The notes beneath the pieces are model-generated. The model ran no database searches. It was given only the letters and a program-made list of their open reading frames with translations, and had not been told where the DNA came from. DNA of 64,000 nucleotides, taken from NCBI RefSeq assembly GCF_002288105.1, contig NZ_CP016774.1, positions 1 through 64,000 of the forward strand, read 5' to 3'. The position numbers were made by a program, and so were the translations under genes. This document shows positions 29,631 through 56,127 of the stretch, in pieces (positions within the stretch are counted from its first letter, which is position 1; every line of letters starts with the position of its first letter). This DNA comes from Candidatus Planktophila versatilis (GTDB taxonomy: Bacteria > Actinomycetota > Actinomycetes > Nanopelagicales > Nanopelagicaceae).

Positions 29631-29636
29631 TACCTA

Positions 29637-30947: not shown

Positions 30948-31000
30948 GGTTCCAGCCCGTTTGGTAATTACCACCCCCTGCCATGGTGCAGAATTCCCCC

Positions 31001-31645: not shown

Positions 31646-31675
31646 ACCGAGCCAAGTTCAAGACAAGTCTAAGGT

Positions 31676-32671: not shown

Positions 32672-33256
32672 GTGGCCAAAATAAGTAAGCGTCAAGATGA
32701 TGTTCTTGAATCGGTAACTCATATTGAGTCAACTCTCTATCAGGATCAGAGAGGTCACTTCTTGGAGACTTGGAGTCAATCCCTATCTGAAACCCTAGTG
32801 GTTCCAACTCTATCTCAGGTCAACCTCTCTCATTCTAGGAAAGGTGTAATCCGAGGTTTGCACCGTCAGAAGCCACCATACTCACAAGGCAAATTGGTGG
32901 TTTGCTTATCGGGCGCAATTCAAGACGTAGTTGTAGATATAGACCCAAAGTCATCAAGTTTTGGGAAATACACCTCAAATGTCCTCCTTGGAAATACCGA
33001 AAAAATGCTCTGGGTCCCCAAAGGGTTAGCTCACGGTTTTCAAGCTTTATCCGAAGACACAATAGTTTTGTACATGACAGACAGCCGATATATGCCTGGT
33101 TTCGAGGAAACTATCTACCCACTAGATAAAACAATTGGGATTTCCTGGAAGTTAGACGATTTTATCTTGAGTGCAAAAGATCTGGAAGGAATATCTCTGA
33201 GTAGCTTGCGCCAAGATTCCGAAGTCAACCTAAAGCCTAGAAATGAGACCTCTTAA
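32672..33256 (+). CDS. rmlC: dTDP-4-dehydrorhamnose 3,5-epimerase-like protein
   Basis: RmlC epimerises C3 and C5 of dTDP-4-keto-6-deoxyglucose. Cupin protein of 194 residues with the family motif GVIRGLHRQKPP (the His is catalytic), YQDQRGHFLETW, and WVPKGLAHGFQALSEDTIVLY. The GTG at 32672 is preferred to TTG at 32657 because a TACAAT -10 lies 5 nt before it and because neither has a ribosome site at proper distance. Its TAA overlaps the rmlB ATG by one base. Confidence 0.88.
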   Translation: MAKISKRQDDVLESVTHIESTLYQDQRGHFLETWSQSLSETLVVPTLSQVNLSHSRKGVIRGLHRQKPPYSQGKLVVCLSGAIQDVVVDIDPKSSSFGKYTSNVLLGNTEKMLWVPKGLAHGFQALSEDTIVLYMTDSRYMPGFEETIYPLDKTIGISWKLDDFILSAKDLEGISLSSLRQDSEVNLKPRNETS

Positions 33257-35107: not shown

Positions 35108-36054
35108 AAAAAAAAGTAGTGAATGTCATGAAAGTGGCACACAAATTTGGAGTTCGCAGATTTCAGAGTTTAACGGAACTTGTTGAGCACCAAAACCCAA
35201 CAATCCATTCGGAGTTTCAGATTCCTGGCACAAAAAACCATGACCCAAACCCATGTTTACTCGACGAATCCACATACCCAATGTTTCAAGTCGAACTTCA
35301 AAATTATATGGAAAACCTGGAAAGAGATTTCGAATCTGGAAGGAGCTATACTTCATTCAAATTCGGCGATGGCGACTACAATTTCTTAAAAAGGATTCCA
35401 AGCGGAAGTGCGCAACCAGGAAAACGTGCGGTGAGTAGAAATCTCAGTAAATCAGAGATGTCACCCTTCATAACCGGCTCTAAGAAATGTAACAAATATT
35501 TTTGTGAGATATACCCAGAGAATAGAAAGATGTTTCAAGAGGTAATTGGCTCTGATAGAAATACGATTCCTGCAGAATTCAATTATGGGCTCGTATCCAA
35601 CAAATGGCTATTTAAAGAATTTGGAAGCTCAATAGGGATTATTGGAGCCTCCGAAAAAGTTGACTTAATTAGACAGTTGATGCAATATCCCGAGTATCAA
35701 GAGTATTTGGGTCTACGCGAGTTTAGTGATTACATCAAGGTGCCCCAAAAATTCGCTTGTGACGATCTTGAATCTCTTGAAATAAGCATGAAAGAGCAAT
35801 TTAAAGAAGCGAAATCAAAACTGTTTCTTTTTGGCATTGGCCATGTTAAATCGGGTATAGCCTGGAAGCTAAACTCTTTCTGGCCTGCAATTTATCTGGA
35901 TATAGGTTCGGGGATTGACGCAATTGCAGGAATCATTGATGAAAAAAGACCCTACTTTGGAGATTGGACGAATCACCAACTCAGATCTGGATTCGATTAT
36001 TCTAAATTAGACTTGCTACAACTTGAAAAATCAAAAGTAAAATTTCTAAATTAA
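35104..36054 (+). CDS. Putative glycosyltransferase with GT-D-like FGDGD motif
   Basis: 316 residues, no confident family. The stretch SYTSFKFGDGDYNFLKR (residues about 80-96) resembles the RFGDGE motif of GT-D (DUF1792) glycosyltransferases, and LFLFGIGHVKSGIAWKLNSF followed by AIYLDIGSGIDAIAG near the C-terminus resembles their last Rossmann-like segment with a conserved Asp. Start is TTG at 35104 in a 4-bp overlap with rmlA, so it is cotranslated with rmlCBA and may use the dTDP-sugar they make. Function is inferred from motif and context only. Confidence 0.6.
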   Translation: MKKKVVNVMKVAHKFGVRRFQSLTELVEHQNPTIHSEFQIPGTKNHDPNPCLLDESTYPMFQVELQNYMENLERDFESGRSYTSFKFGDGDYNFLKRIPSGSAQPGKRAVSRNLSKSEMSPFITGSKKCNKYFCEIYPENRKMFQEVIGSDRNTIPAEFNYGLVSNKWLFKEFGSSIGIIGASEKVDLIRQLMQYPEYQEYLGLREFSDYIKVPQKFACDDLESLEISMKEQFKEAKSKLFLFGIGHVKSGIAWKLNSFWPAIYLDIGSGIDAIAGIIDEKRPYFGDWTNHQLRSGFDYSKLDLLQLEKSKVKFLN

Positions 36055-36061
36055 GGATTTA

Positions 36062-37027
36062 TCAGAACCAGTTTTTTGAATCAAACTTCTGCCGGATTTC
36101 ATCGAACCATTTCACTGTGGTCATGATCCCCTCGTCTAGAGATGTATAGGGAAATACGCCAACAGTCTTATCCAGCAGCAGCCCATTCGATTTTGTCACA
36201 GGAATATCTTGTCCATCTGGATCAACGTAATGAAGGGGAATAGAGACTCCTGTTGCCCTTTGGATAGAGTTCACTAAATCTAAAAGGGATACTTCATTAC
36301 TGCCCCCGATATTCAAAACTTCCGGTAAGTTCTCTTCCGACTCAATCAATAGGATTAATCGACGGATTACATCGTCCACAAAAGTGAAATCTCTCTTGAT
36401 TAAGCCATCCCCGTTTAAATTGAACTCGAATTGACCGCGCGCGGCGGCAATGAGGCGTAGGTATGCCATGTCTGGGCGCCCCCAAGGCCCATAAACAGAA
36501 AAGAATCTCAGGCCCACGAACTTTGTATTGGATAACTGATGTAGTTTTTTTGCTAACCCTTCATTTAACCACTTTGTATATGGGTAAAGGCCAGTGGGTT
36601 GGCCCAACATCTCTGATTCAACAAATGGAAAACTTTCAGACTTCTCATAAACACTAGAAGAAGAGGCGTAAATGAATTTAGGAACATTGTGCTTCACCGC
36701 CAAGCTGGCTATCCTTGAGAAAGCTTCAATATTGTCCCTAAAGTAAGAAAGATTATGAGGATAAGAAACCCGAACTCCAGGTTGTGCCGCTAAATGGACA
36801 ACACACTCAAAATCTTCGTCAGCAAATAATTTCTCGGTTCGATCATCAGAAATTTCAAATTCATAAAGCTTGTCACCGAGTAGAGTCTGCGCTCGTAATT
36901 TTTTATACTCAGGTGAATAGTATGGAGAAATTCGATCTAAATAAACACACTCATGTCCTTCGGATTCTAATCTACTTCCTAGATGAGCTCCAATGAAACC
37001 AGCTGCCCCCGATACCAGAATCTTCAT
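36062..37027 (-). CDS. NAD-dependent epimerase, UDP-glucuronate 4-epimerase-like
   Basis: 321-residue SDR. N-terminal SGAAGFIGAHLGSRLESEGH, then DRISPYYSPEYKKLR, VHLAAQPGVRVSYPHNLSYF, YASSSSVYEKSESFPF, YPYTKWLNEGLAKK (YxxxK) and RFFSVYGPWGRPDMAYLR. The PYYSPxxKxLR and VYGPWGRPDMA marks are those of UDP-glucuronate 4-epimerases (CapI/LpsL). It would supply UDP-galacturonate. On the opposite strand to its neighbours, with a leaderless-type TAGCCT 6 nt before the ATG. Confidence 0.8.
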   Translation of the reverse strand: MKILVSGAAGFIGAHLGSRLESEGHECVYLDRISPYYSPEYKKLRAQTLLGDKLYEFEISDDRTEKLFADEDFECVVHLAAQPGVRVSYPHNLSYFRDNIEAFSRIASLAVKHNVPKFIYASSSSVYEKSESFPFVESEMLGQPTGLYPYTKWLNEGLAKKLHQLSNTKFVGLRFFSVYGPWGRPDMAYLRLIAAARGQFEFNLNGDGLIKRDFTFVDDVIRRLILLIESEENLPEVLNIGGSNEVSLLDLVNSIQRATGVSIPLHYVDPDGQDIPVTKSNGLLLDKTVGVFPYTSLDEGIMTTVKWFDEIRQKFDSKNWF

Positions 37028-37033
37028 AGCGCA

Positions 37034-37039
37034 AGGCTA
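37034..37039 (-). promoter_or_regulatory. -10 element, leaderless epimerase promoter
   Basis: TAGCCT on the minus strand, exactly 6 nt before the ATG. Confidence 0.5.
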
Positions 37040-37060
37040 CTATTTAACCAGCTTTATTGT

Positions 37061-37066
37061 TAATAT
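37061..37066 (+). promoter_or_regulatory. -10 element, leaderless promoter
   Basis: TAATAT, exactly 6 nt before the ATG at 37073. Divergent to the element at 37034-37039, with 21 bp between them. Confidence 0.5.
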
Positions 37067-37072
37067 CCGGAC

Positions 37073-37810
37073 ATGCAAAGTCACGATAAATTTCACCAGA
37101 GCGAAATTTCGAAGCATGTAATCCTTTACTTCATGTCTGTTGCACCAAGAGAATTATCTTCTCGCGAGGTACAAAAGAGAGTTCTGGATTACAAAATCGC
37201 ATTCAAGCAACTTCAGCGAGTACTCCCACAGTCCTGGCAAGTGATCATTTGCGAAAACACACTCGGGGCAAACGAATCCAGTTTGACCTCGATACTTGAT
37301 TTCCAGAGGGGACCTTTTCCTATTTCTTCTCTAAGTGCTAACTCAGGGGAAATCAATAAGGGAATTGGAGAGTTGGACATGATGGTCAATGCTGCCACTG
37401 ATTTTCCTGAGTTATTGAGGAATTCAAGAACAGTAAGCTATTTTACCGGCAGAAGAATTGTCACGAACAGATATATTTTCGAAAGAACAGAGAATTTGAC
37501 TTCAGAAGCACTGATATCAAACCCGGACTTTTTCTATCTTGATGGAACTATTGTCGAGACAGAAAAACAATACATGTACAACGATATGTTCTTTTCAATG
37601 AAATCCAGAACTTTTCTTGATTATGTGGAATTTTTTAAGTCCAATCGGGAGAAAATGATAGAGTTAGGGGTAGGATCTGAGCAGAATCTATTTGACTTCA
37701 TGAAGAAGAACGGCATCGGTTTTGAGTGGTTAAATGAATTAGGTCTTCTGCGCAGGGAGAAGCAAACATTTTTTAGATGGTTTCAAAAAGATCGCATCCA
37801 TATCTGTTAA
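37073..37810 (+). CDS. Unidentified protein of the glycan cluster (glycosyltransferase-like?)
   Basis: 245 residues, not recognised. The central SGEINKGIGELDMMVNAATD and SYFTGRRIVTNRYIFERTEN, and the later YMYNDMFFSMKSRTFLDYVE, have the look of a GT-A-like fold in which an NKG/GE pair binds the nucleotide sugar, but no DXD motif is evident. No signal peptide or membrane segment. It lies 17 bp before the aminotransferase gene and is probably transcribed with it. Role could be sugar transfer or sugar-nucleotide modification. Confidence 0.5.
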   Translation: MQSHDKFHQSEISKHVILYFMSVAPRELSSREVQKRVLDYKIAFKQLQRVLPQSWQVIICENTLGANESSLTSILDFQRGPFPISSLSANSGEINKGIGELDMMVNAATDFPELLRNSRTVSYFTGRRIVTNRYIFERTENLTSEALISNPDFFYLDGTIVETEKQYMYNDMFFSMKSRTFLDYVEFFKSNREKMIELGVGSEQNLFDFMKKNGIGFEWLNELGLLRREKQTFFRWFQKDRIHIC

Positions 37811-37827
37811 ATCGAAAGGCAGTAGTA

Positions 37828-38967
37828 ATGGAAATCAGAAAAGACATTTTGCCGGTTCTTCGCCCTGTTTCCGGAGTTGAAGAGATCGCATCTTTGGCAG
37901 AAACACTCGAATCAGGTTGGTGGGGCAAAGGTCCTAAAGTTGCCAAGTTTGAGGAAGAATTCGCGAAGATGGTTGGTGCAAAATATGCGGTTGCAGTTAC
38001 GAGTGCGACACATGGGCAAGATTTAGTTTTCAAGGCACTTGGCATCCGACACGTAGACGTTATCAATCCCACTATTTCCTTTATGACAACGGCCGCAGTC
38101 CCACTTTGGAATGATTGCACGAGCAATATTGTTGACGTGGATCCACATACTTTAAATCTCGACCCGAATGATGTGAAAAAATCGCTTAGGATTAATACCG
38201 AAGCAATTATTGCGGTTAACCATGCCGGAGTACCTGCACCTATTGCTGAGATTCGCGAGTTCTTCGATGGATTTATTCTTGAAGACTGTGCCCATAGTTG
38301 TTATGTGCCCGGAGCTGGACTGCAAGGAGACGCTGCAGTTTGGTCGTTTCAAGCAGTTAAAACAATGCCGACCGGTGATGGAGGGATGATCACAACAAAC
38401 AGTAAAGAACTCTATGAAAAACTAGTTCCAATGACTTGGCTCGGAATCTCAAGTACCTATTCAAGAACTTTGGCTACGAGCTCTCTTATTCCTGGGAATA
38501 AGCCAGGTGGCTATAATTGGGACTATGAGGTTGATGTTCTAGGCTACAAGTGTTACATGATTGATTTGACCGCGGCAATAGGACTAGAACAAATGAAGAA
38601 ATTGCCAAAAAATCTTGAATACCGTCGTCATATTCAATCGCGATATAACAATGAGCTTGATATGAAAATTGGCCGACCCGCATGGTCTGAAACTGTTCAG
38701 TATTATTGTGCACGCGTTGATGCTGAAATTAGAAACGATCTAATCAACTATCTCGCTGACAAAAAAATACATACAAGCGTGCATTTTAAGCCGCTTCACC
38801 TGTATCAGATTGTCAAGCAAAATAGAGAATACCCAGTCGCGGATCAAGAATGGCGCAGGCTTATTTCTTTACCATGCCACCCAGGAATGACTGAAGAAGA
38901 TATTTCATATGTGATTTATTGGGTTAACCAATATTTTAAAGAATCTCATAAACGTGAGAAATTTTGA
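37828..38967 (+). CDS. DegT/DnrJ/EryC1/StrS aminotransferase
   Basis: PLP-dependent sugar aminotransferase that converts a keto-sugar nucleotide to an amino sugar. From the ATG at 37828 (behind AAAGG) it has 379 residues. Marks: SGWWGKGPKVAKFEEEFAKM at the N-terminus, VAVTSATHGQDLVFKAL, ILEDCAHSCY (PLP-binding Asp), SFQAVKTMPTGDGGMITT with the Schiff-base Lys, and the C-terminal HFKPLHLY. An upstream in-frame ATG at 37777 is unlikely since it lies within the previous gene. With rmlAB next door, a dTDP-amino-deoxysugar is a possible product. Confidence 0.88.
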   Translation: MEIRKDILPVLRPVSGVEEIASLAETLESGWWGKGPKVAKFEEEFAKMVGAKYAVAVTSATHGQDLVFKALGIRHVDVINPTISFMTTAAVPLWNDCTSNIVDVDPHTLNLDPNDVKKSLRINTEAIIAVNHAGVPAPIAEIREFFDGFILEDCAHSCYVPGAGLQGDAAVWSFQAVKTMPTGDGGMITTNSKELYEKLVPMTWLGISSTYSRTLATSSLIPGNKPGGYNWDYEVDVLGYKCYMIDLTAAIGLEQMKKLPKNLEYRRHIQSRYNNELDMKIGRPAWSETVQYYCARVDAEIRNDLINYLADKKIHTSVHFKPLHLYQIVKQNREYPVADQEWRRLISLPCHPGMTEEDISYVIYWVNQYFKESHKREKF

Positions 38968-39074
38968 AATCTCCGACAATTAGCGTCAAATCATCTTGGC
39001 AATTCACACCAGATTCTTAATTTTTTGATTCCGGCGGATCAATTGATTTTCCAACTCTTGGAGTATGTGTATTC

Positions 39075-40031
39075 ATGAAACCAAAATATGAGAGACACAC
39101 TTATCAAGATTTGAGCTTAAATCTTCATACCGAACGCGATTCTCTCCACTACAGAGTAAAACTTGCTGCTGTAAGACTTTTCATTGATAAAAACCCATTT
39201 GCATTTCAACAAAATGGTACTTCCGTAGTCAAATCCAGGTTGAGACACAACTTGAATCTTATGAAGATAAAAGCGCAGAACCAGACAGACTGGATCTTGA
39301 ATGTTAATGGTGAGCAGCTTTGGAGAACAATGAAATTGAACGGTTCTAGGTTATTGATAGGACCAAATGTTGAATTCCATGCCCCATGGGTTCGCCAAAA
39401 AATTGAAGATGTCTCAGATGCGACAATTCTTATTCCAAGCATTTGGGTGGAGCCAATAATTCGCTCAAGAATTCCATGGTTCAAAGGGGAAATTCGAGTT
39501 CTCGACAGCGATATCGATTTGAATTATTGGCGCCCAAGCGATAGCAAACGTACTCACCTACTCGTTTACTTGAAATCGAATGAAAACGAAGCTGACTACC
39601 TGACGCTTGTGGGTTATTGCAAAGAATTACAAGTCGAAATATCTACAGTCCGCTACGGTCAATATTCGAAAAAGGAATTCAGAAAGAAACTCGATAATTC
39701 ATTCGCAGCTGTTTGGTTGGGCGGTACGGAAAGCCAAGGCTTGTCTTTGCTGGAAGCTTGGGCGATGGGCGTTCCTACTTTAGTTCGATCTGCACCCAAA
39801 TACTTTGACGATGTTACAAAACAATGGTTCAACTCTTCAAGTGCACCACTCCTTTCGGCAAAGTGTGGCATTGAATTTTCAATGGAGAGTTTTTCAATGA
39901 GTCAACTCAAGCTTTTTATAGATGAATCGAAACACCTCATGCCCAGAGAATTTGTGGTGGCTAACTACTCAGAGGAAAAATCACGATTAAAAATTCAGCA
40001 ACTATTGCAGGCTTCGAATCCCAGAATCTAG
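39075..40031 (+). CDS. Glycosyltransferase, GT-B fold (GT4-like)
   Basis: 318 residues. The C-terminal Rossmann domain has the retaining GT-B signature AVWLGGTESQGLSLLEAWAM followed by GVPTLVR, with the E-x7-E pair. The N-terminal half is short and shows ILNVNGEQLWRTMKLNGSRL and LIGPNVEFHAPWVRQKI. Donor and acceptor unknown. The last 30 bp (40002-40031) overlap the 3' end of the convergent GT11 gene. A 107-bp AT-rich spacer separates it from the aminotransferase gene. Confidence 0.78.
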   Translation: MKPKYERHTYQDLSLNLHTERDSLHYRVKLAAVRLFIDKNPFAFQQNGTSVVKSRLRHNLNLMKIKAQNQTDWILNVNGEQLWRTMKLNGSRLLIGPNVEFHAPWVRQKIEDVSDATILIPSIWVEPIIRSRIPWFKGEIRVLDSDIDLNYWRPSDSKRTHLLVYLKSNENEADYLTLVGYCKELQVEISTVRYGQYSKKEFRKKLDNSFAAVWLGGTESQGLSLLEAWAMGVPTLVRSAPKYFDDVTKQWFNSSSAPLLSAKCGIEFSMESFSMSQLKLFIDESKHLMPREFVVANYSEEKSRLKIQQLLQASNPRI

Positions 40032-40871
40032 TTGTTGCCAATGAGAGTAAAGCAGGTCTTGTGTATCTATTGAGCTCTTCGCGAACCAAGGCTTAGGTAG
40101 ATAGATCTGGTCTTGTTTGGAATTAAGGAATGCAGCCCACCAACTCAAAGAACTGTTAGATCCAATCAATCCAGACATGCGGGACATTAGCAATAAATTC
40201 TCAGAGGGTTTAGGTAAATCGTTATGCGATATGTAGCTTTCAGCATTCGGGAAAACCTTCCTTGCAATTTCAATAGAATCAGAGAAAACAACAAATTTCG
40301 CGGCTGAATTGATTTGCATGATTCTGTCAGATGCCTCTTTGTAATACTCAGGACTTACAATTCCGTGGAAATTTTCTTTCCCAATATAATCTCCACGTCG
40401 GATGTGGATCGCATAATGACTGTGCTGAGTGATTTTTGCGCTCAGTAAATGGAATTCATTGCTGAATTGAACGTGTTGATTGGGTAGCGAACGTAAATCA
40501 TCCTGGACATTCTCTAGATATAGAAATGATTGGAAGTAGCCATAAAGCGTTTTCCCTCTGGGATTTTCATAAAATCGAGAGTCAAATCTGAAACTTTGCT
40601 CAGCAAAGAAGAAACGTTCTCTATTGACTATCCTGTTCAACCTAGAAATCAATGTAGATCTGTAGGGATGGCGGCTACCTGGTTGTCGAGAGGCCGCGTG
40701 AATATTGAAATTATGGAGTTCATAAGGCCTGTCTTTGATGCTGGGTTGAATAAATTGACATTCGAGCCCCGTGAATTTCTCGATGCTCTTGCCCGCGGCA
40801 TACCCGAACAATTGATTTCCAAGGCCGCCTGTTAGCGCCACTTCGAATCTACCGACCGAAACCTTAGGCAC
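40002..40871 (-). CDS. Alpha-1,2-fucosyltransferase family (GT11)
   Basis: GT11 enzymes transfer fucose (or galactose-like sugars) in alpha-1,2 linkage. From the GTG at 40871, 289 residues. All family motifs are visible: ALTGGLGNQLFGYAAGKSIE at the start, YAIHIRRGDYIGKENFHG in the middle (donor binding), and GLIGSNSSLSWWAAFLN near the C-terminus. A longer frame reaches 40928 but would overlap the divergent gene; a TATCAT -10 hexamer lies exactly 6 nt before the GTG. Its 3' end overlaps the convergent GT-B gene by 30 bp. Confidence 0.88.
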   Translation of the reverse strand: MPKVSVGRFEVALTGGLGNQLFGYAAGKSIEKFTGLECQFIQPSIKDRPYELHNFNIHAASRQPGSRHPYRSTLISRLNRIVNRERFFFAEQSFRFDSRFYENPRGKTLYGYFQSFLYLENVQDDLRSLPNQHVQFSNEFHLLSAKITQHSHYAIHIRRGDYIGKENFHGIVSPEYYKEASDRIMQINSAAKFVVFSDSIEIARKVFPNAESYISHNDLPKPSENLLLMSRMSGLIGSNSSLSWWAAFLNSKQDQIYLPKPWFAKSSIDTQDLLYSHWQQLDSGIRSLQ

Positions 40872-40877
40872 TCCGAA

Positions 40878-40887
40878 ATGATAACAT
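40878..40887. promoter_or_regulatory. Overlapping divergent -10 elements
   Basis: Minus-strand TATCAT (40878-40883) serves the GT11 gene at 6 nt from its GTG; plus-strand TAACAT (40882-40887) serves the GT2 gene at 7 nt from its GTG. The two hexamers share bases, so the two promoters should exclude each other. Confidence 0.5.
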
Positions 40888-40894
40888 CGAGCCT

Positions 40895-41713
40895 GTGGGT
40901 AACCAGCTATTTTCTGTAGTTGTCCCAATCATTCCAAAGCATTTTGTGTATCTCCCCAAGCTACTCAAGGAGTTTGAGTCGGAGGAGGAATCTGTAGGAG
41001 AAATTATTATTTGTGCCAGTTCGACTATTGACACTGATCTAAGCCGCCTTCAACTCATCAAGTCAGAATCCAACTTATCCAAACTCATTCGAATTCTTTC
41101 CACTGACCTGTATCAGACTGCAGGACTCAATCGAAACCGAGGCTGGGAATCGGCCCTCTTCCCGGTAGTCTCATTCATTGACGCTGATGACACCTATCAC
41201 CCAAAAAGACTTAAAATCTTAAATGAAGTTTTGGAAGCAACGGGGGCAGATTGCGTCGTACATGATTATTACCGGCTTACCCCTCGATTTAGGTTCAAGT
41301 TATCCGTAAATAAGTTCAGCAGAGTATCAACTTCAGATGAAATGAGAAAAGCTAATTCTGGAATTAAAAGTGATCATGACCCAGCTGACAATCTTTATAG
41401 AGGTGAAACTAACTTGAGGTTACCCTCAAACGTTTCGAAGCGCAGTCGCATACATCATGGGCATGCGACAGTTAAAACAAAAATTTTGCTGCGGTTTTCT
41501 GACAGAAGATTTGGAGAAGATGGAGAGCTACTGCAGAAAATTGTTAATTCCGGGCTCGATCTAGTTTATTTGGATGCAAAATTGTCGATTTACGATCGCC
41601 TCAATTTTTCAAATCTTTCTCAAAGCGCGCGAGGGCACCTTTCGAATTACCTCAGGCTCATTTACAGAGGAATTTTTTTAGCAAAGCCGAGTAGAAAGAT
41701 GCCCAAAAAATAA
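40895..41713 (+). CDS. Glycosyltransferase family 2 protein
   Basis: 272 residues, GT-A fold. Start is GTG at 40895, giving the usual first strand FSVVVPIIPKHFVYLPKLLK; the metal-binding motif is VSFIDADDTYHPKRLKILNE near residue 90, and DRRFGEDGELLQKIV near residue 210 is the acceptor-side ED motif. It is divergent from the GT11 gene with 23 bp between start codons, and its last 56 bp (41658-41713) overlap the convergent next gene. Confidence 0.82.
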   Translation: MGNQLFSVVVPIIPKHFVYLPKLLKEFESEEESVGEIIICASSTIDTDLSRLQLIKSESNLSKLIRILSTDLYQTAGLNRNRGWESALFPVVSFIDADDTYHPKRLKILNEVLEATGADCVVHDYYRLTPRFRFKLSVNKFSRVSTSDEMRKANSGIKSDHDPADNLYRGETNLRLPSNVSKRSRIHHGHATVKTKILLRFSDRRFGEDGELLQKIVNSGLDLVYLDAKLSIYDRLNFSNLSQSARGHLSNYLRLIYRGIFLAKPSRKMPKK

Positions 41714-42515
41714 GGTCTCTACCCGGCGCCAGTCTGACTGTTCCGGCCTTCCAAATCCTAGTAATTGTTAGTCTCTTATTCTTAACACTCTGATCATTCG
41801 TAATTGAACCGGTACTGACCCACGCACCCTTCAAATCACTCTGCGTACTCTCAATTCCACTACTGAAAAAACCCGAACCCATAGGCTCAATAATGATTCT
41901 TTTCTTCGCTACTAAAATACTTAAGACAGACTGATCATGCCGATGAATTCTTGAATTTCTCTCAAATGGGAGTTCCATAAGAACTCTAGGGTCATTCATG
42001 GCGTCTCTCCAGACACCCAGATATTCTCTAGCTAATTCAGAATTCTTCACAATCAGAATGCCTGCCGTAAACATAGGGTAGTTACCGAATTCCCCTGCTG
42101 ACAATCTTTTTAGCACGCGAGGTAACGTCCACTCCCCAATAGTTGAGTTAATCTTGAATCCAGCTATCTCAAAATCTTTAGGCAGAGACTTGATTACTTG
42201 TTCAGGATTTGAATGCAACTGGCAATCTGCGTCCAAATAAATCAAATAATCATAAGAATTCAATTTTAGGAAATGATCAACTGCAATTGGCTTCCAAAAC
42301 CAAGCCCCGACACCTTTTTTAAATTTTGGGAAATCCTGAAAAGGAGTTCCCGAGATTTCTTTTCTTAAATCTGAAAATGTATAGTTCAGAAAATCCACAC
42401 CATGAGCTTCAGCGGATGCGCGGAGAGTCCTTAGCTGGGAGGAAAAATCTCTAAAACCTCTGTCATCAAGAGTCGTACCGAAGGCAACAACACCAATTCT
42501 CATGTCTGGGCTCAT
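41658..42515 (-). CDS. GT-A glycosyltransferase (GT8-like, DxD)
   Basis: 285 residues. Marks: RIGVVAFGTTLDDRGFRDF at the N-terminus, GVGAWFWKPIAVDHFLKLN, then YDYLIYLDADCQLHSNPEQV with the DxD metal motif near residue 95, and HRHDQSVLSILVAKK typical of nucleotide-diphospho-sugar transferases. An internal ATG four codons later (42503) is also a possible start. The 3' end overlaps the convergent GT2 gene by 56 bp. Sugar unknown. Confidence 0.75.
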   Translation of the reverse strand: MSPDMRIGVVAFGTTLDDRGFRDFSSQLRTLRASAEAHGVDFLNYTFSDLRKEISGTPFQDFPKFKKGVGAWFWKPIAVDHFLKLNSYDYLIYLDADCQLHSNPEQVIKSLPKDFEIAGFKINSTIGEWTLPRVLKRLSAGEFGNYPMFTAGILIVKNSELAREYLGVWRDAMNDPRVLMELPFERNSRIHRHDQSVLSILVAKKRIIIEPMGSGFFSSGIESTQSDLKGAWVSTGSITNDQSVKNKRLTITRIWKAGTVRLAPGRDLIFWASFYSALLKKFLCK

Positions 42516-42522
42516 AGAGCCG

Positions 42523-42529
42523 TATACTA
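42523..42529. promoter_or_regulatory. Overlapping divergent -10 elements
   Basis: Plus-strand TATACT (42523-42528), close to the consensus, would drive the ATT-start GT2 gene; minus-strand TAGTAT (42524-42529) lies 8 nt before the ATG at 42515. Confidence 0.45.
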
Positions 42530-42572
42530 GCTAATGATCTCACACCGGCACTAAGTTTTTGGAGGGTTTCGT

Positions 42573-43496
42573 ATTAAACCTCGAATCACGTTTATAACTC
42601 CAATTGGGAACTTCGTTCGAGACGAACCCACTTTAGACGTGAATATCGAAAAATTTAATCGTATCAAGAATTGTGAATTCATTCTAATAAATGATTCCTT
42701 CCGCAAGCCCAGTTCGCTTTCTAGACTAAAGAAGAAGTATGAGTCTCACAACATACATTGTGTTGAAGTTTCCAAGGGGAACCCGGGCGAAACAAGAAAC
42801 GCAGGAATTGAGATTGCCTCTGGGGATTGGATTTCGTTCATTGATTCGGATGATTTCGTGGAATTCTCCGGCTATGTAGACTTGGTCGAGAAGGCTCAGT
42901 TAGCGGGAGCTGATTTTGCGGTTGGACAGTATGTAAGAATGTTACTTGCGGATTCAGGACTCACCAAGACTTTCGTTCCTTCAAATCAAGACAGCATTGA
43001 GCAACTTGCTCGCGATCCGGGAATCTGGCGTATGTGCTTCCGAAGGGATTTAATCAGCGCTAACCGATTCACTCCGATGAGAATGGCCGAAGACCAAGTC
43101 TTTCTATTAAATTTAGAATTTTGGAAACATAAAGCCCTTTTTTCGAGGTTGCCAATCTACTCCTACCGAACTGGAGTTGAGACACAACTGACCCAAACAT
43201 TGGATGCATTCGATGACATTAAATTATCAATCGGAATTTTCTTTGACTATCTATTTAACGTAAGCCAAGAAAGGGATGATCGGAAGATTGTATCGATCAT
43301 GCTGAGTTCTCAATTAATTAGTGTCTTTCGTCGTAAACCGTTTAAGGGTCCATTCTTACTTGCTGCGAATCTGCTGAGGGTTAGAAACTCGATTAGATTC
43401 ACGAGAACCACTCTTTTTCTGATGAGAATCCTTATAATTGAATTCCTGGGAAGAAGCCGCAATTTTCTCGTAGACAAAGGAAATAGAAATGTCTAG
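42573..43496 (+). CDS. Glycosyltransferase family 2 protein, probable ATT start codon
   Basis: From ATT at 42573 the protein has 307 residues and begins with a perfect GT2 first strand, KPRITFITPIGNFVRDEPTL. A GGAGGG ribosome site lies at 42561-42566, 6 nt before the ATT. The nearest normal start, GTG at 42639, would delete this strand and has no ribosome site; a TAA at 42552 closes the frame upstream and no ATG, GTG or TTG lies between. Other marks: NPGETRNAGIEIASGDWISF, the metal motif IDSDDFVEF, and MAEDQVFLLNLEFW. It overlaps the ABC transporter gene by 8 bp. Confidence 0.8.
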   Translation: MKPRITFITPIGNFVRDEPTLDVNIEKFNRIKNCEFILINDSFRKPSSLSRLKKKYESHNIHCVEVSKGNPGETRNAGIEIASGDWISFIDSDDFVEFSGYVDLVEKAQLAGADFAVGQYVRMLLADSGLTKTFVPSNQDSIEQLARDPGIWRMCFRRDLISANRFTPMRMAEDQVFLLNLEFWKHKALFSRLPIYSYRTGVETQLTQTLDAFDDIKLSIGIFFDYLFNVSQERDDRKIVSIMLSSQLISVFRRKPFKGPFLLAANLLRVRNSIRFTRTTLFLMRILIIEFLGRSRNFLVDKGNRNV

Positions 43497-45321
43497 CTCA
43501 AATCTACAAATTGCAAAGCAGGCTCTCGGGTTAGTTAGCCAGAGAGACAAAAGAAAAATATACATCGTTTCAGTTTCTCAATGTATCGCAAGCATCCTTG
43601 ATCTTATTGGTGTTGCCGCCATCGGAATTCTCTCCGCAATTGCGGTGAATGGCGTACAGTCCAGACCGCCCGGGAACCGAGTGGGAAAAATACTTGAAAT
43701 CTTGGGCTTGTCGGATTCTACTTTCCGAACCCAAATCATTTTTTTGGCCAGTGTTGCATTATTTGCAATGATTTTAAGAACTTGCCTTTCAATTATACTT
43801 TCCAGGAAAACACTGAGACTTCTTAGTAAAATTTCAGCTGAGATTTCTAATGATTTGGTGTCTAAGCTGTTCTCTCACTCATTACTAGAGGTCAAAACTC
43901 GCTCTAATTATCAGAATGTCTACGCATTGACGGCTGGCGTGAATTCCATAATGATCGGAGTCATTGGAGTAATCGTATCTTTACTTTCGGATATCTCCTT
44001 AATGATTGTCCTTGTCGGCGGATTGCTTGCGGTAAACCCAACGGTAGCAATTTCAACCCTAGCTGTCTTTTCCATGATTGGATTTTTGTTGTACTTATAT
44101 CAACATCATCGTGCTGAAGTTATGGGCACTAAGTTTACAGAGTCAACTATTGAACGTGATTCAGATTTATTTACAGGCCTAAACTTGTATCGCGAATTAC
44201 TTGTTCGAAATCAGAGGCATACCTTTGCCGAACAAATCAATCAGAAAACGACGGCGCTATCTCGTCTAAGTGCGGAAGTTAGCTTTCTCCCGTTAGTAAA
44301 CAAGTATGTCATTGAAATTACAGTCGTTGTTGCTACCTTCCTTGTCGCTGCCGCAAGTTTTGCTTTTCAAGATGTCTCCCGAGCCGTGTCGGGGTTAGCA
44401 ATTTTTTCAGCCGCCGCCGCGAGAATCACGCCCGGGATTATCCGCATACAGCAATCAATGATCCTTTTGAGATCTAGTATCGGTAGCACTTATCCGACTT
44501 TGGACCTGATCAAATCTTTGAAAGACGTAACAGCTTCTCAAAGTACTGAAATGTCGTCAAAGCCAACCCTGAATCAATTCATTCCCGAGGTTGTGTTTAA
44601 GAACGTTGATTTCACTTACCCTAACGCCCCAAGACCAGTTTTGAGCTCACTAAATTGCACAATTAATCCTGGGGAGCTTGTCGCTGTCATTGGGCCGTCA
44701 GGTGCAGGCAAGTCAACTTTTGTTGATTTGCTTCTAGGAGTAATTGAGCCAACAAGTGGATCAGTGACCATATCTTCCAGACGCCCGATTCAGGCAGCGA
44801 GAGATTTTCCGGGAGCCCTCGCATACGTCCCGCAGGAGGTCTCCTTAATGTCAGCTTCTGTGGAAGAGAATGTATTGATGGGATACTCAAAAAGTTTACA
44901 GAATATAGAGAAAATGAAAATGGCGCTCACGGATTCCGAACTTGATAATCTCATCAGTGAACTCCCGCTTGGATATCAGACAAGAATAGGTGAGCGAGGC
45001 ATCCCATTAAGTGGTGGCCAAAGGCAAAGAATTGGAATCGCGAGAGCGTTGATTACCAATCCACGTTTGATAGTTTTTGATGAAGCCACGAGTTCGCTAG
45101 ATGCAGAAACGGAAAATCGAATTAAGGAAACTATCCAGATCATGAAAGGGCGCGTAACTCAAGTGATTGTCGCACATAGACTATCTACAGTTCGAGACGC
45201 AGACACGGTTTTCTATATTGATGATGGTGGGATTAGGGCGCGGGGATCATTTGAGGACATTGCTCGAGAAATTCCAAACTTTAATTCGATCGCCCACCAA
45301 ATGGGCCTGACAGACCGCTGA
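43489..45321 (+). CDS. ABC transporter, fused permease-ATPase (glycolipid flippase-like)
   Basis: 610-residue exporter half-transporter in the MsbA/PglK style, likely flipping a lipid-linked glycan across the membrane. Residues about 20-320 hold six membrane segments; residues about 365-600 are the ATPase: Walker A AVIGPSGAGKSTFVDLLLG, Q-loop LAYVPQEVSLMSASV, signature IPLSGGQRQRIGIARALI, Walker B LIVFDEATSSLD and the H-loop VIVAHRLSTV. It overlaps the preceding glycosyltransferase by 8 bp, so synthesis and export are coupled. It is the only flippase candidate in the cluster. Confidence 0.9.
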   Translation: MSSSNLQIAKQALGLVSQRDKRKIYIVSVSQCIASILDLIGVAAIGILSAIAVNGVQSRPPGNRVGKILEILGLSDSTFRTQIIFLASVALFAMILRTCLSIILSRKTLRLLSKISAEISNDLVSKLFSHSLLEVKTRSNYQNVYALTAGVNSIMIGVIGVIVSLLSDISLMIVLVGGLLAVNPTVAISTLAVFSMIGFLLYLYQHHRAEVMGTKFTESTIERDSDLFTGLNLYRELLVRNQRHTFAEQINQKTTALSRLSAEVSFLPLVNKYVIEITVVVATFLVAAASFAFQDVSRAVSGLAIFSAAAARITPGIIRIQQSMILLRSSIGSTYPTLDLIKSLKDVTASQSTEMSSKPTLNQFIPEVVFKNVDFTYPNAPRPVLSSLNCTINPGELVAVIGPSGAGKSTFVDLLLGVIEPTSGSVTISSRRPIQAARDFPGALAYVPQEVSLMSASVEENVLMGYSKSLQNIEKMKMALTDSELDNLISELPLGYQTRIGERGIPLSGGQRQRIGIARALITNPRLIVFDEATSSLDAETENRIKETIQIMKGRVTQVIVAHRLSTVRDADTVFYIDDGGIRARGSFEDIAREIPNFNSIAHQMGLTDR

Positions 45322-45327
45322 TAATCT
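45322..45327 (+). promoter_or_regulatory. -10 element, leaderless FkbM promoter
   Basis: TAATCT starts at the base after the ABC transporter stop and lies exactly 6 nt before the ATG at 45334. Confidence 0.45.
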
Positions 45328-45333
45328 AGAGCA

Positions 45334-46089
45334 ATGTTAATCTCACCTCTTGAGTTGGAATATCTCTGGCGTATAAAACCTAAATCCATTTTGCACATAG
45401 GTGCTCACTTGGGCGAAGAATCGGGTAGATATACATCCCGTGGATGGAACGATGTGGTTTGGATAGAAGCTCAGGAGGCTCTGGCAATTTCACTCACTGA
45501 AAGAATGATTCTAAAAAAACAAAGAGTGATTCACGCGGCAATTTGGGACATCGATGGAATCATATTGGATTTGAACGTAACCAATAATTCCCAATCTACG
45601 AGTTTGCTGGAATTTGGTACTCATAAGAATGATTACCCAGACGTTCACGTGTCACATAAGGAAAAGGTTTCAACCAAACGGATAGATTCGATATTCGACG
45701 AAGGCACCATTCCAGACTTTATTAATTTAGACATTCAAGGAGCTGAGATAAGAGCCCTAAAGAGTTGTGGGAAACTATTATCGAAAGTGAAGTACGTTTA
45801 TTGTGAAGTCAACAAAAAGGAAGTATACCTGGATTGCCCTTTGGTAGATGAAATAGACGAACTCTTATCTGGATTTGGTTTCGAGAGAGTGACAACAAGA
45901 TGGGTTCCCTATAAGGGATGGGGTGATGCATTTTACGTCAATACGGAAGTAACAAGAATTTCTATGCTTGCAAAACTGGTGGGTAAATCCTTCGAGTTGC
46001 TTTACACCCAATACTATTTTTTGTCAGTTGCTCACTTCAAATTTCTGCGAACTTTAAGAAAACTCAAGAATTCATTCGCTAATCGATAA
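45334..46089 (+). CDS. FkbM family methyltransferase
   Basis: 251 residues; FkbM-type enzymes O-methylate sugars or small molecules with SAM. Marks: SILHIGAHLGEESGRYTSRG (motif I), VVWIEAQEALAISL, AIWDIDGIILDLNVTNNSQS, VSTKRIDSIFDEGTIPDFIN followed by LDIQGAEIRALKS, the conserved D-x-EG/QG motif of FkbM. Its 3' end overlaps by 58 bp with the end of the broken glycosyltransferase gene on the other strand. Confidence 0.85.
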   Translation: MLISPLELEYLWRIKPKSILHIGAHLGEESGRYTSRGWNDVVWIEAQEALAISLTERMILKKQRVIHAAIWDIDGIILDLNVTNNSQSTSLLEFGTHKNDYPDVHVSHKEKVSTKRIDSIFDEGTIPDFINLDIQGAEIRALKSCGKLLSKVKYVYCEVNKKEVYLDCPLVDEIDELLSGFGFERVTTRWVPYKGWGDAFYVNTEVTRISMLAKLVGKSFELLYTQYYFLSVAHFKFLRTLRKLKNSFANR

Positions 46090-46787
46090 GTGATGGCTTG
46101 ATACCGCATCAAACTCCTTAAATGTAGAAATGAAATCAAAAGAGTTTCAATCCTTCCGCACCTGTTATGGTGAGCCGAAAAATTTGGAAATTCACTAGAC
46201 ACTAACAGATAAGAGAGATAATCAAACTTTTTTGATTCATAAAGAGAACACAACTGTCTGAAATCGGCAGCAACTCGATAGTTTAAATCCAATTTTCGGG
46301 GTCCCCTGAGGAAAGTGGTGGAGAAAATTACTCACTGGTGGCTGACATATGAATTCCTCTTTGCTGAGAGAAACCCCGGTAAACTAATCTGTCTTGAATT
46401 GAGATCTTCATCCCATCCTACGCTTACTGGGAAAAGATAAGAAGTTTCATCTTTTTCGTAGGTATCTCTTAGGCAGATTTGAAGACTTTGATGATTGATT
46501 AATTCGTCTCCGGTATTTGAGAACAATACATGGGTTTTACTAGCACATTGAACTCCCACATTCATGGCTTGGTAGACCCAATGGCCGGAATCACGCACTA
46601 CTCGAACCTTAAGCTCATCCATTAGGCCTAGCTCAATATCATCATCTACTGGCACTACCAGAATAATCTCAATTTCCGATAAACCTGAAGGGATGGAAGA
46701 AAGGGTCTTGTACAACCGAGTATTCTCATATGCGGAAACAACTACGATAGATATCTCTGAGAAAAGGCTGGTGAAATTTGTGGACAT
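46032..46787 (-). pseudogene. Glycosyltransferase family 2 gene interrupted by one in-frame TGA
   Basis: The minus-strand frame from ATG at 46787 runs to a TGA at 46332-46334 (151 residues), then stays open in the same frame to 46032. Reading through gives about 250 residues, collinear and gap-free with the intact paralogue at 55354-56127 (257 residues): NSYVSHQ then stop here against NGYVSHQS there, and later YRVAADFRQLCSL against FPIAADTKQIFQL. The stop sits where the paralogue has Ser. N-terminal marks: SIVVVSAYENTRLYKTLSSI and VYQAMNVGVQCASKTHVLFS. It is either a very recent pseudogene, a readthrough gene or a sequence error. AAGGA precedes the ATG. Confidence 0.82.
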
Positions 46788-47682
46788 ACCAATCCTTCTG
46801 CTTGCTCATAAACGGCCTCACAATACTAGACAAATTGAGGAGTTAATTCCTGCATCTTCGCGAGCTTATTGTTTTGTAGATTTTGCTGGGGAAGGCTCCA
46901 ATCTGAGCCGCGATGTGGTTGATTTTGTAAAGTCAACATTCACAAATCCTCAGCGTAGTTACAAGATTTCAGATGCGCCCCTAGGGCCTGGAAAGGCAAT
47001 GATTGAGGCTATTGACTGGGTTTTTGACTTCGAAGAAAGAGTGTTAATTCTAGAAGATGATGTATTTCTCAATGAATATGCCATTGATTTTGTATACCAA
47101 TCATCCCTCGCCATCAAAGATTCGACGACACTAATCACACTTCGTTCCCCATTCCAAGATCAGGATTACGTGGGCGATATCCCGTCGGGTTACTCAAAAT
47201 TCTGTTTAACGAATGGTTGGATTCTAAACCGTGAAGCCTGGAGGCAATTTCAACACCATCGAACCAAATCCCTGTTTTCAGAGTTAGTTACCTTCGTTAT
47301 TCGCCGGCCAACGTCCTTAAGAATTGAACATTTTTTCTTCTTATCTGCATCCGCGCTAAGCAGAAAGGAATTAATTCGAGCGTGGGACACACAGTTTATT
47401 TTTTTCACATTACTTAACAATATCCAGACTCTCACACCAAATCGATCTTGCGTAGAAATTCGAGGAGTTGACTCGGTTGCAAGTAATACGTTACCAGCGA
47501 GCAGTCATTTCAGTGATGTATTTTGGCCAGCGAGTAAGTTGCCACCTAGCCTAATATTTTCCAAGTCTCGGTCAGTCAGTAAAGTCTATAACGCTGAGAT
47601 CCGAGACTCAGTCTATAAAATTCGCCCAAGGCATTTTTTCTCACCAATTAAGAGTTTATTGCAAATTATCAAGCACAGATGA
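46771..47682 (+). CDS. GT-A type glycosyltransferase-like protein
   Basis: 303 residues from the GTG at 46771 (AAAAGG ribosome site 5 nt upstream). Marks: FVDIPILLLAHKRPHNTRQI as first strand, GPGKAMIEAIDWVFDFEERV, then LILEDDVFLNEYAIDFVYQS with the metal-binding EDD motif near residue 95, and FCLTNGWILNREAW. This resembles GNT-I-like/sugar transferases that use an EDD motif; donor unknown. Its start overlaps the divergent broken GT2 gene by 17 bp, and its end overlaps the convergent GT4 gene by 27 bp. Confidence 0.7.
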   Translation: MKFVDIPILLLAHKRPHNTRQIEELIPASSRAYCFVDFAGEGSNLSRDVVDFVKSTFTNPQRSYKISDAPLGPGKAMIEAIDWVFDFEERVLILEDDVFLNEYAIDFVYQSSLAIKDSTTLITLRSPFQDQDYVGDIPSGYSKFCLTNGWILNREAWRQFQHHRTKSLFSELVTFVIRRPTSLRIEHFFFLSASALSRKELIRAWDTQFIFFTLLNNIQTLTPNRSCVEIRGVDSVASNTLPASSHFSDVFWPASKLPPSLIFSKSRSVSKVYNAEIRDSVYKIRPRHFFSPIKSLLQIIKHR

Positions 47683-48828
47683 GTAGACATTAGTAATCGA
47701 ATGAGTTGAAAAAGTTGCAGCTGTCCCTGTGTCAAATAAATTTGCTCGCTGCGAATTGAAAATTTGCCGGATTCCCCCCAAGATATTTTCTATATTGTGC
47801 TCATGAGGTTCAAGTGCAATCCCGTTGCTATCTAGAATTTCCAAAATACCGCCAACATTTGAAGTGAGTACTGGGATGCCCAAACTTTGAGCTTCGACGA
47901 TGCTATTTGGACTGTTGTCGGCGCGCGAGAGAGCTAAGAGTAAATCTATCTCCTTCCAAAAGTTTGGAAGAGATTTTCCAACTGGTTTAAAATCTCTCAA
48001 AAACAATACCTTATAGTTTCGCTTAAATCGTTCATCGCTTAACAATTTCGTGACCAAATCACCATACTTCGTGTAACTATCGCTCATAGTTGCTATGCCA
48101 ATTCTCGGATTCTTCGCAATTTCCCCAGTTCTCTCTAGTAAATATCTTTCTGTATTCCAATCTGGCCCTAATGGATTGGGAATTCTTGAGACCTGCCTTT
48201 CGGAAATACTCAAATTCATTAATGCAGCACCTTGTAGCCAAAGCGAGGGTGAGACTAGGTGAAGATTGGGAAACTTTGTTAGATCCAGATTCCCTAACAA
48301 GTCTCTACCTCTTTGAATTTGGCGAGTGATTAACTTGCTGGCTCTTGGGCAGGCTCTACAACCGCCTTCATTTTCGATGCAATTCAACCTGTAATGGCAA
48401 CCACCCGTGATAAGTCGCTCGTCGTGCATCGTTAAAACAATTGGAAATCCTTCTTGAATCAGCTGAACAAAATTCTTGGTGCTTATCAGGTTTTGCCAAT
48501 TGTGAAAATGTAATACGCGGGTCTTGCCTTTCGACAATTTTTTGAAAAATTCAAGTGGAACTGCATTTGTTGAGAAAACAGAAAAATGAATATCTCTCGT
48601 AAATCGCTCATTTAACGCAATCGCTATCCTTGAACCAACTTTTGACACAATGTTTCGATTGATCGGATACTCTTTTAGCTCCAGAGTTAAATCGTTCCGG
48701 CCGATGCAGTAAAACTCTGAGTCATAACCCTCCTGAAGGAGTTCAGCATGGAGTCTTCTTGCCGCGAGTCCTGCTCCTCCAGTGTGCCCGGTAGATAGCT
48801 GAACCACGGAAGATTTTATATTTTGCAC
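47656..48828 (-). CDS. Glycosyltransferase family 4 protein
   Basis: 390 residues, GT-B fold. N-terminal SSVVQLSTGHTGGAGLAARR with the glycine-rich loop, then TRVLHFHNWQNLISTKNF, VLTMHDERLITGGCHYRLNC and a cysteine group CHYRLNC-x-ENEGGCRACP seen in WcaC-like GT4 enzymes, and C-terminal LLALSRADNSPNSIVEAQSL followed by GIPVLTSNVGG with the E-x7-E signature. Start is GTG at 48828 with TATCAT 6 nt before it. It is the last gene of the AT-rich cluster. Its 3' end overlaps the convergent gene by 27 bp. Confidence 0.85.
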   Translation of the reverse strand: MQNIKSSVVQLSTGHTGGAGLAARRLHAELLQEGYDSEFYCIGRNDLTLELKEYPINRNIVSKVGSRIAIALNERFTRDIHFSVFSTNAVPLEFFKKLSKGKTRVLHFHNWQNLISTKNFVQLIQEGFPIVLTMHDERLITGGCHYRLNCIENEGGCRACPRASKLITRQIQRGRDLLGNLDLTKFPNLHLVSPSLWLQGAALMNLSISERQVSRIPNPLGPDWNTERYLLERTGEIAKNPRIGIATMSDSYTKYGDLVTKLLSDERFKRNYKVLFLRDFKPVGKSLPNFWKEIDLLLALSRADNSPNSIVEAQSLGIPVLTSNVGGILEILDSNGIALEPHEHNIENILGGIRQIFNSQRANLFDTGTAATFSTHSITNVYSSVLDNLQ

Positions 48829-48834
48829 TCATAA

Positions 48835-48840
48835 ATGATA
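48835..48840 (-). promoter_or_regulatory. -10 element, leaderless GT4 promoter
   Basis: TATCAT on the minus strand, exactly 6 nt before the GTG start. Confidence 0.5.
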
Positions 48841-48971
48841 CTGAGCAACTTGGGCAATATGTCCGTTTTGTCCCCTTCCCACGACAAACTAGGATGGGAT
48901 TCGTAGTAGCGAATAGAGGCGGCGACGGCTGAGCTCTTCAAGACAAAACCGGTTAAAGAAGGATCACTCAA

Positions 48972-54151: not shown

Positions 54152-55357
54152 ATGAAAGTTGCAATTATTGGGCAAGGCTATGTAGGCCTGACCATCTCAG
54201 CTTTTGCTGGCGAGTTCTATGAGGTGGTGGGCTTTGATAACAATCAAAAGATTGTGGATCAATTAAATCAAGGTCTTTCACATATTGAAGGCGTTGAAAG
54301 TTCAGTCATAAAACAATGGATTAAGCAGGGGCGCTATCGCGCCACTACTAAGGGTGCCGACATTGCCGACTCTGACATTGTGGTAATTGCAGTACCAACG
54401 CCGCTGACAAAAGATCGTAAGCCAGATTTAACATTCATTGATGCGGCATGTAAGACGGTGGGTGAAAACCTCAATCGCACAGCGCTAATTATCAATGAAT
54501 CAACATCTTTTCCTGGCACGCTGCGTGATTACATCAAGCCAGCCATAGATAAGTATTCAGCTGGGAAGTTCGACCATTTGTACGCGATCTCACCTGAGCG
54601 AGTAGATCCAGGGCGCAATGATTTCAACCAGAAGAACACTCCGAGGCTGTATGCGGGATTAACGCCAGAAGCATCAAGTGCAACCCGTGCGTTCTATGCA
54701 AAGTTCTGTGATCAATTAGTTGAAGTCTCATCTCCTGAAGTAGCAGAGGCAGCAAAGTTATTTGAAAATACTTTCAGGCAAGTCAACATTGCTTTGGTAA
54801 ATGAGTTTGCCCAGATTACAAACGCTTTAGGCATTAGCGTCTATGAGACGTTAGATGCGGCTAATACCAAGCCTTATGGGTTTATGAAGTTCACACCGAG
54901 TGCGGGTGTGGGCGGGCACTGTATCCCGGTGGATCCCACGTATTTGGCGGCGGTAGCTGAAGAACGTGGCGTGCCAGCAACATTTATTCGCCGGGCAAAT
55001 GAAGTAAATCTAGAGATGTCGAAATACATTGTGGATCGGGTGCAGGCAGATAACGGTGAATCGCTGCAAGGTAAGAGTGTTTTGGTTGTGGGAGTTGCCT
55101 ATAAGCCCAATGTGGCAGATGTGCGAGAGACCGCCGCCGAGTTAGTCATAGAGCACTTGCGTGGCCGTGGGGCTGTGGTGGCCTGGCACGATGATGTTGT
55201 GGGCAGTTGGCAGGGCGAAAGCTCCGCCCCGCTATCGGGGGCAGATATCACGGTGGTGATTACTAAGCATGATGTGGTGGATGCGAGAGCGATTATGGCT
55301 AGTGCGCCTTATGTATTTGATACAACAGGAAAGATTGCAGGAGCGAATAGGTTGTGA
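54152..55357 (+). CDS. Nucleotide-sugar dehydrogenase, UDP-HexNAc type
   Basis: Oxidises a UDP-sugar C6-OH to a uronic acid with two NAD. 401 residues: N-terminal Rossmann KVAIIGQGYVGLTISAFAGE, VVIAVPTPLTKDRKPDL, INESTSFPGTLRDYIKP, the conserved Lys region AEAAKLFENTFRQVNIALVN, and the catalytic Cys in SAGVGGHCIPVDPTYLA (residues about 249-265). GGHCIPVDP is the mark of the UDP-GlcNAc/ManNAc group (WbpA/WecC), unlike the GGSCFPKD of UDP-glucose dehydrogenase. It starts at the base after the ligase stop and overlaps the next gene by GTGA. Confidence 0.88.
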   Translation: MKVAIIGQGYVGLTISAFAGEFYEVVGFDNNQKIVDQLNQGLSHIEGVESSVIKQWIKQGRYRATTKGADIADSDIVVIAVPTPLTKDRKPDLTFIDAACKTVGENLNRTALIINESTSFPGTLRDYIKPAIDKYSAGKFDHLYAISPERVDPGRNDFNQKNTPRLYAGLTPEASSATRAFYAKFCDQLVEVSSPEVAEAAKLFENTFRQVNIALVNEFAQITNALGISVYETLDAANTKPYGFMKFTPSAGVGGHCIPVDPTYLAAVAEERGVPATFIRRANEVNLEMSKYIVDRVQADNGESLQGKSVLVVGVAYKPNVADVRETAAELVIEHLRGRGAVVAWHDDVVGSWQGESSAPLSGADITVVITKHDVVDARAIMASAPYVFDTTGKIAGANRL

Positions 55358-56127
55358 GTGCAAGCCCTACGCTCACACTTGTTACTGTTTCAGCTTTTGA
55401 TCTATCGCGTTTGTCTAGAACGATTGAAAGCTGTAAAGGCATGGTTGCTGACTTAGAACATCTATTTGTAATTCCTTCTAATGATTTGGAATCTTTAGAA
55501 GCGATTGATTTGTATTCCAAGACGGCAAATTTTGATGTTCGGGTAGTGCATGATAACAAAGAAGGAATTTATGCAGCCATGAACTTAGGAGCATTATCGG
55601 CACAAGGAATTTATTGTCTTTTTCTAAACGCTGGCGATGAGGTGTTCTCCGGGCCAACGGTAAGAAAAAATGTTGAGACTCTTAAGGTTCTCAACCCTAT
55701 TTGGGGCGTGACTGGTGTTTCTCTGCCTTGGAATGCAAATTATTATGCTTACCAATCTATGGATAAGGACTTCAGGAAGCAGAAGAGCAATGGGTACGTC
55801 TCTCACCAAAGTGTTTTTGTCAGGCTAGATATATTCAAGAAACTGAACGGACTTGATGTCAAATTCCCAATAGCTGCAGATACCAAACAGATTTTTCAGC
55901 TAAGCGCTCTATGCTCCCCTCAAATTCTTGAAGGAATAGCAATTAAAGTTGAACAGGGTTTCAATGTAACCTCAAATAATCGAGAAAGTAGAATTGAAGT
56001 TCTTCGCCTGATTAACTCCATTGGAGGAGTCGTCACTAGGCTGGTTTCAAATTTTTACTTTTTTAAGCGCGAATTAAATTTTATATCACGTTATATTTTG
56101 AGATTGTTTCGAGAATTCAACTCTTGA
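55354..56127 (+). CDS. Glycosyltransferase family 2 protein
   Basis: 257 residues; intact paralogue of the interrupted gene at 46032-46787. Marks: TLTLVTVSAFDLSRLSRTIE, VVHDNKEGIYAAMNLGALSA, FLNAGDEVFSGPTVRKN (metal-binding NAGDE), and GYVSHQSVFVRLDIFKKLNG. WcaA/Colanic-type family-2 enzymes have the same GIYxAMNxG mark. Start is GTG in a 4-bp overlap with the dehydrogenase gene. Its last 37 bp (56091-56127) overlap the end of the convergent epimerase gene. Confidence 0.85.
   Translation: MSASPTLTLVTVSAFDLSRLSRTIESCKGMVADLEHLFVIPSNDLESLEAIDLYSKTANFDVRVVHDNKEGIYAAMNLGALSAQGIYCLFLNAGDEVFSGPTVRKNVETLKVLNPIWGVTGVSLPWNANYYAYQSMDKDFRKQKSNGYVSHQSVFVRLDIFKKLNGLDVKFPIAADTKQIFQLSALCSPQILEGIAIKVEQGFNVTSNNRESRIEVLRLINSIGGVVTRLVSNFYFFKRELNFISRYILRLFREFNS

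Follow-up and report, generated by a model that had tools for sequence, protein, structure and literature searches.

Does a single in-frame TGA in a glycosyltransferase gene of Candidatus Planktophila versatilis, a free-living, streamlined freshwater actinobacterium, mark a gene that has been lost, a gene that is reversibly switched or read through, or a gene that is intact in the living strain and misrepresented in the assembly? The gene lies within the window, by which we mean the whole stretch of DNA analysed here (positions 1 to 64,000 of contig NZ_CP016774.1, assembly GCF_002288105.1; 64,000 nucleotides); the coordinates of the features discussed below are given in the table.

We consider it likely that a gene for a WcaE/WrtF-like glycosyltransferase of GT-A fold, situated in a replaceable surface-glycan island, has recently become a nonsense pseudogene. 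On this reading translation would stop after residue 151, the truncated product, deprived of the last core strand and of the probable catalytic Asp175, would transfer no sugar, and the strain would build a glycan lacking the corresponding residue or linkage. The stop itself is ordinary, and the type of event is already known.

Features of the interrupted glycosyltransferase locus and its surroundings in the window
Feature	Position	Strand	Remark
Glycan-biosynthesis island	31645..48858		No blastn match (E<=1e-5) in the corresponding G298 stretch
Downstream 99 codons and terminal TGA	46032..46331	-	AAD175 segment, C-terminal helices; open, weak coding signal
In-frame TGA, codon 152	46332..46334	-	Position A/S/T/G in 16/16 aligned homologues
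Upstream part, 151 codons, WcaE/WrtF-like GT2	46335..46787	-	N-terminal strands and NTGDE segment
Divergent partner gene	46780..47682	+	Predicted start; 5' end overlaps the start of the interrupted gene; pair also in G043
Group 1 glycosyltransferase, distant WcaC match	47656..48828	-	Third gene of the block common to G043
Strain-specific insertion: paralogue and GDP-fucose-synthase-like epimerase	55348..57122		38 bp at that place in G298
Distant paralogue, intact, 28% identical	55354..56127	+	

The interrupted frame and its predicted product

The glycosyltransferase frame comprises 251 codons and, by translation of the minus strand, runs from an ATG at 46787 to 46032, with its terminal TGA at 46034-46032; translation of the same interval (46032-46787) on the plus strand meets stops throughout. 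The original prediction of a gene broken by one in-frame TGA is confirmed, and its missing strand can now be given as minus. The internal TGA (bases 46334-46332) is the sole stop inside the frame, and the roughly 100 codons said to remain open after it were counted as 99 sense codons. An open stretch of this length occurred by chance in 86 of 18,492 windows (0.46%) drawn from the non-gene frames of island genes. The stop was also said to stand at a Ser position, and this is borne out: the paralogue has Ser opposite it, and all 16 homologues carry a small residue there (A in 7, S in 3, T in 3 and G in 3). The alignment to the paralogue past the stop, described as gapless, is so for the 64 residues from 153 to 216, but beyond them a global alignment requires gaps. 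The NTGDE segment of the upstream part is presumably of the DxD type.

The interrupted protein by itself matched no Pfam family at E<=1, and the paralogue just passes PF00535 (24.6 vs 23.3 bits). Over residues 12-216 the two proteins share 59 of 211 positions (28%; 82.4 bits, E 5e-21); the upstream part scores 67.0 bits against the paralogue before the downstream part is added to reach that total, and the downstream 99 residues as a lone query missed it at E<=1. A tree built from 17 homologues groups the interrupted protein with the paralogue and with a protein from another genome of the genus (G043), with support of 0.99 from the upstream columns and 0.87 from the downstream columns. The likeness to WcaE, the colanic acid glycosyltransferase (TIGR04009), is that of a distant relative only, the match at 1.6e-9 being the paralogue's own and reaching 37.4 bits where the cut-off is 369.2.

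A model of the read-through protein, built from the query aligned with 12 homologues, adopts a GT-A fold with a pLDDT of 73.5, dropping below 50 in residues 119-145 and 203-206. Its best structural match in a second-look structure comparison was WrtF, a fucosyltransferase of GT-A fold (PDB 9omh-9omn; Z 19.9 over 211 residues, rmsd 3.8), and SpsA matched with Z 18.3; ranked by Foldseek E-value, TarS and TarP lead the matches. WrtF also ranks first when the PDB is searched with the family profile (E 5.6e-30), although it shares just 15% identity with the gene described here and the latter is interrupted.

Past the stop lies Asp175, which all 16 homologues share. In the model it stands among the first residues of helix 174-185, and its counterpart in chondroitin polymerase is the first Asp of the DYD segment of the second domain. 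According to the available part of PMC7185993, the catalytic base of most inverting GT-A enzymes is an xED-motif Asp located where helix alpha-F begins, and alignment and model together make Asp175 the probable catalytic base of this protein. The stop falls just ahead of strand 154-156 and helix 174-185 in the model, and the in-frame disruption removes Asp175 along with the C-terminal two fifths of the protein. Because this invariant and probably catalytic residue is removed, the truncated product (residues 1-151) should be inactive.

A strain-variable island and a separately acquired paralogue

At the place of the island, the same-species genome G298 carries a different stretch of 27,645 bases without DNA similarity to it (E<=1e-5). 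Compared with 60 kb of G298, the window matches from 19957, which is where the compared G298 stretch starts, to 31644, with the exception of 29589-30961, and the match resumes at 48859. A gene at 29637-30947 sits in the unmatched segment, where G298 has about 0.7 kb. Some island proteins have distant relatives encoded in the alternative stretch of G298, the closest being an ABC transporter at 34% identity. The island encodes a dTDP-sugar 3,5-epimerase, NAD-dependent epimerases/dehydratases, a nucleotidyltransferase and an aminotransferase, along with GT2, GT11 and group 1 glycosyltransferases, an FkbM methyltransferase and an ABC transporter. Because the interrupted gene sits in this strain-variable surface-glycan island, an altered surface glycan is a plausible consequence of its loss.

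No close relatives of the gene turned up. Searched against 298 related genomes, the read-through protein matched six, including its own, with identities of 24-28% in the other five, and it matched none of 50,697 phage records. The upstream part picked out 70 stretches in genome contigs, and a search of viral contigs gave 14 stretches; none of either set was confirmed. No orthologue was found in G298, although the same query does detect the paralogue in genome G000. A limited literature search returned no report of this particular gene, which says little.

The order of interrupted gene (-), divergent partner (+) and group 1 glycosyltransferase (-) recurs in G043, with identities of 25%, 27% and 33%, respectively; the homologue there is intact and in the same divergent arrangement, and no closer one was found. 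The partner itself has no Pfam or NCBIfam match at E<=0.001, and a relative of it was present at one of 42 homologue loci (that of G043), most of these loci extending no more than about 1.5 kb to either side. The two divergent genes meet head to head at 46771-46787, the ATG at 46787 (-) facing a probable GTG at 46780 or 46771 (+), which gives a 5' overlap of 8-17 bases. A similar overlap seems to be present at the G043 locus (L003), between a GTG at 2178 on the minus strand and a TTG at 2169 or 2145 on the plus strand. Judged by eye, the homologous glycosyltransferase of that locus (661-2178) belongs to a protein of 505 residues that has a further, methyltransferase-like region at its C-terminal end.

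As to the paralogue, the original prediction was right that it is intact, but it is not a copy of the same gene. It stands at 28% identity and belongs to a separate, strain-specific insertion of 1.8 kb at a place where G298 has 38 bp; it is thus no recent duplicate and no species-wide back-up. A nearby intact paralogue thus need not mean redundancy, this one having arrived by an insertion of its own.

Age of the stop and condition of the downstream part

Since the 250 codons have acquired no second stop, the loss is young by the standards of the gene family. In a simulation of neutral substitutions alone, random mutation of the 250 sense codons at 0.1 substitutions per site left them free of new stops with a probability of 0.03-0.05, which dropped to less than 0.02 at 0.15; the 99 downstream codons, taken alone, still stayed free with a probability of 0.2-0.3 at 0.1 substitutions per site. 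We put the upper bound of the loss at about 0.1 neutral substitutions per site. Near the island, the two main stretches of the flanks diverge from G298 by 5-7%, and the 683 bases bordering its left edge by 14%. Set against this flank divergence, the stop-free bound implies that the loss is at most about as old as the divergence within the species, or that it is a base error. The proposal of a recent loss by one substitution therefore gains support, the event being probably recent.

The original prediction had named strong decay of the downstream part as an observation that would speak against it; the signs that we found are weak and mixed. The codon score of the upstream part is the best of six frames in its own frame and falls at the 39th percentile of 119 intact island-gene windows, whereas that of the downstream part is the lowest of six in its own frame, falls at the 7.6th percentile of the same windows, and is exceeded by 30.6% of 601 non-gene-frame windows. 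In leave-one-out profile scoring the downstream part scored 0.097, the lowest of 17 members (the next being 0.389); upstream the interrupted gene was again the lowest of 17, but close to the paralogue, and in the difference between downstream and upstream scores it was second lowest, one intact member being lower. The terminal branch of the interrupted gene measures 2.23 downstream (1.14 for the paralogue) and 1.54 upstream (1.34 for the paralogue), and a Trp occupies a position at which 15 of 16 homologues have Gly.

Other measures of decay are equivocal. With the G043 homologue as outgroup, a relative-rate test counted 33 vs 19 changes (p 0.07); across 15 outgroups p ranged from 0.003 to 1.0, with two of the 15 below 0.05 and two leaning the opposite way. 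Conserved columns were mismatched at 8 of 24 positions at a 70% threshold, where intact members had 2 to 11 mismatches, and at 6 positions at an 80% threshold, equal to the two highest intact members. The substitutions G70W, G84K, G120P and G201P were considered as marks of decay and rejected, given that two intact but divergent homologues, L063 and L064, show 11 and 9 mismatches at the 70% threshold. Surface glycosyltransferases of lake bacterioplankton show high pN/pS in the available part of PMC9426551, and fast change need not therefore mean loss. Downstream decay is thus hinted at, short of proof. Decay of this size would moreover conflict with the young age of the loss, and part of the extra downstream divergence is therefore probably older than the stop.

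Competing readings and known systems

Among the alternatives to a recent nonsense pseudogene, a base error in the assembly, with the gene intact in the living strain, survives best, though we consider it unlikely. One substitution would suffice to create the TGA, and the frame, the invariant residues and the C-terminal region are otherwise kept. On the other hand, the genome is assembled as one contig of 1,331,009 bases, 100% complete by the tool's estimate, and the weak coding signal and extra divergence of the downstream part are unexpected, if not strongly so, in an active gene.

Readthrough or UGA recoding, yielding a little full-length enzyme, had been proposed on the strength of the sequence and agrees with the open frame after the stop, but the remaining evidence makes it very unlikely. 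Genome-wide, no tRNA-Sec was found above the cut-off (the best candidate, at 37.9 vs 47 bits, is a tRNA-Ser), nor any SelB (best 203.6 vs 242.25), and none of 38 tRNA matches, all with assigned anticodons, carried a UCA anticodon. No homologue out of 16 has Cys opposite the stop, and selenocysteine insertion was dropped on these grounds. The RF2 gene prfB is intact, and TGA is the terminal stop of 14 of the 48 listed window genes, which are intact frames by construction. Read by hand, the tRNA-Trp has A9, G24 and a paired 27-43, and shows none of the readthrough changes named in the available part of PMC13092985.

No other homologue with a stop inside came up among the matches listed. In a profile search of 396 Actinomycetota genomes, this gene alone among the 33 matches listed (E<=1e-20) had stops inside, its terminal TGA being counted along with the internal one and stops being scored inside the matched part alone. 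Scored in the same way, the 296 genomes of the order gave no interrupted homologue among the other matches listed. When 135 genomes of the genus were scanned for PF00535, no interrupted genes appeared among the matches listed; this control is imperfect in that the interrupted gene itself has no PF00535 match and stops were again scored inside the matched part alone.

More doubtful still is a functional truncated or split protein, consisting of residues 1-151 alone or complemented by a restart at TTG 46292. An 86-codon TTG frame does begin 39 bases past the stop, but such a restart leaves out the segment directly past the stop, and in the model the 151-residue piece would be without Asp175 and helix 174-185.

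Fainter again is the idea that the UGA is retained on purpose, such that leaky readthrough would supply few enzyme copies, a variable fraction of the glycan would receive an extra sugar, and the site would act as a leaky phage-receptor switch. The first phages of the globally abundant freshwater bacterial group to which this strain belongs have been isolated recently, and the group is said to be without CRISPR-Cas, according to the available part of PMC10202952.

A reversible switch (phase variation) of the glycan, the phase-like loss once suggested for this site, is the least credible reading of all: the gene does lie inside a strain-variable surface-glycan island, but the change is a point substitution, the interrupted gene contains neither direct or inverted repeats of at least 12 bases nor a tandem array, and the paralogue is too divergent at 28% identity to act as a conversion donor, for which reason gene conversion from it was dropped as a candidate.

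If the stop is real, the recent nonsense pseudogene would be a small case in which the loss of a gene alters a glycan, in addition to the exchange of whole islands. Both layers have counterparts elsewhere. Inactivation of wciE in pneumococcus leads to capsule type 33E (PMC10462825, available part), where likewise one glycosyltransferase gene of a polysaccharide locus is lost by an inactivating mutation; there the glycan change was shown chemically, whereas here we infer it. The O-chain clusters of Pelagibacterales are strain-specific polysaccharide clusters in streamlined plankton, as set out in the available part of PMC11898729, and resemble the present island in that glycan clusters differ between close relatives, although the genome studied here is actinobacterial and two genomes were compared.

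The comparison with G298 also brought out differences beyond the right edge of the island. For the segment 50719-52146 the G298 stretch offers no DNA match, and an O-antigen-ligase-like gene at 52457-54151 (Wzy_C, 30 bits vs a cut-off of 31.7) shares just 67% identity with its G298 counterpart, the next gene being 95% identical.
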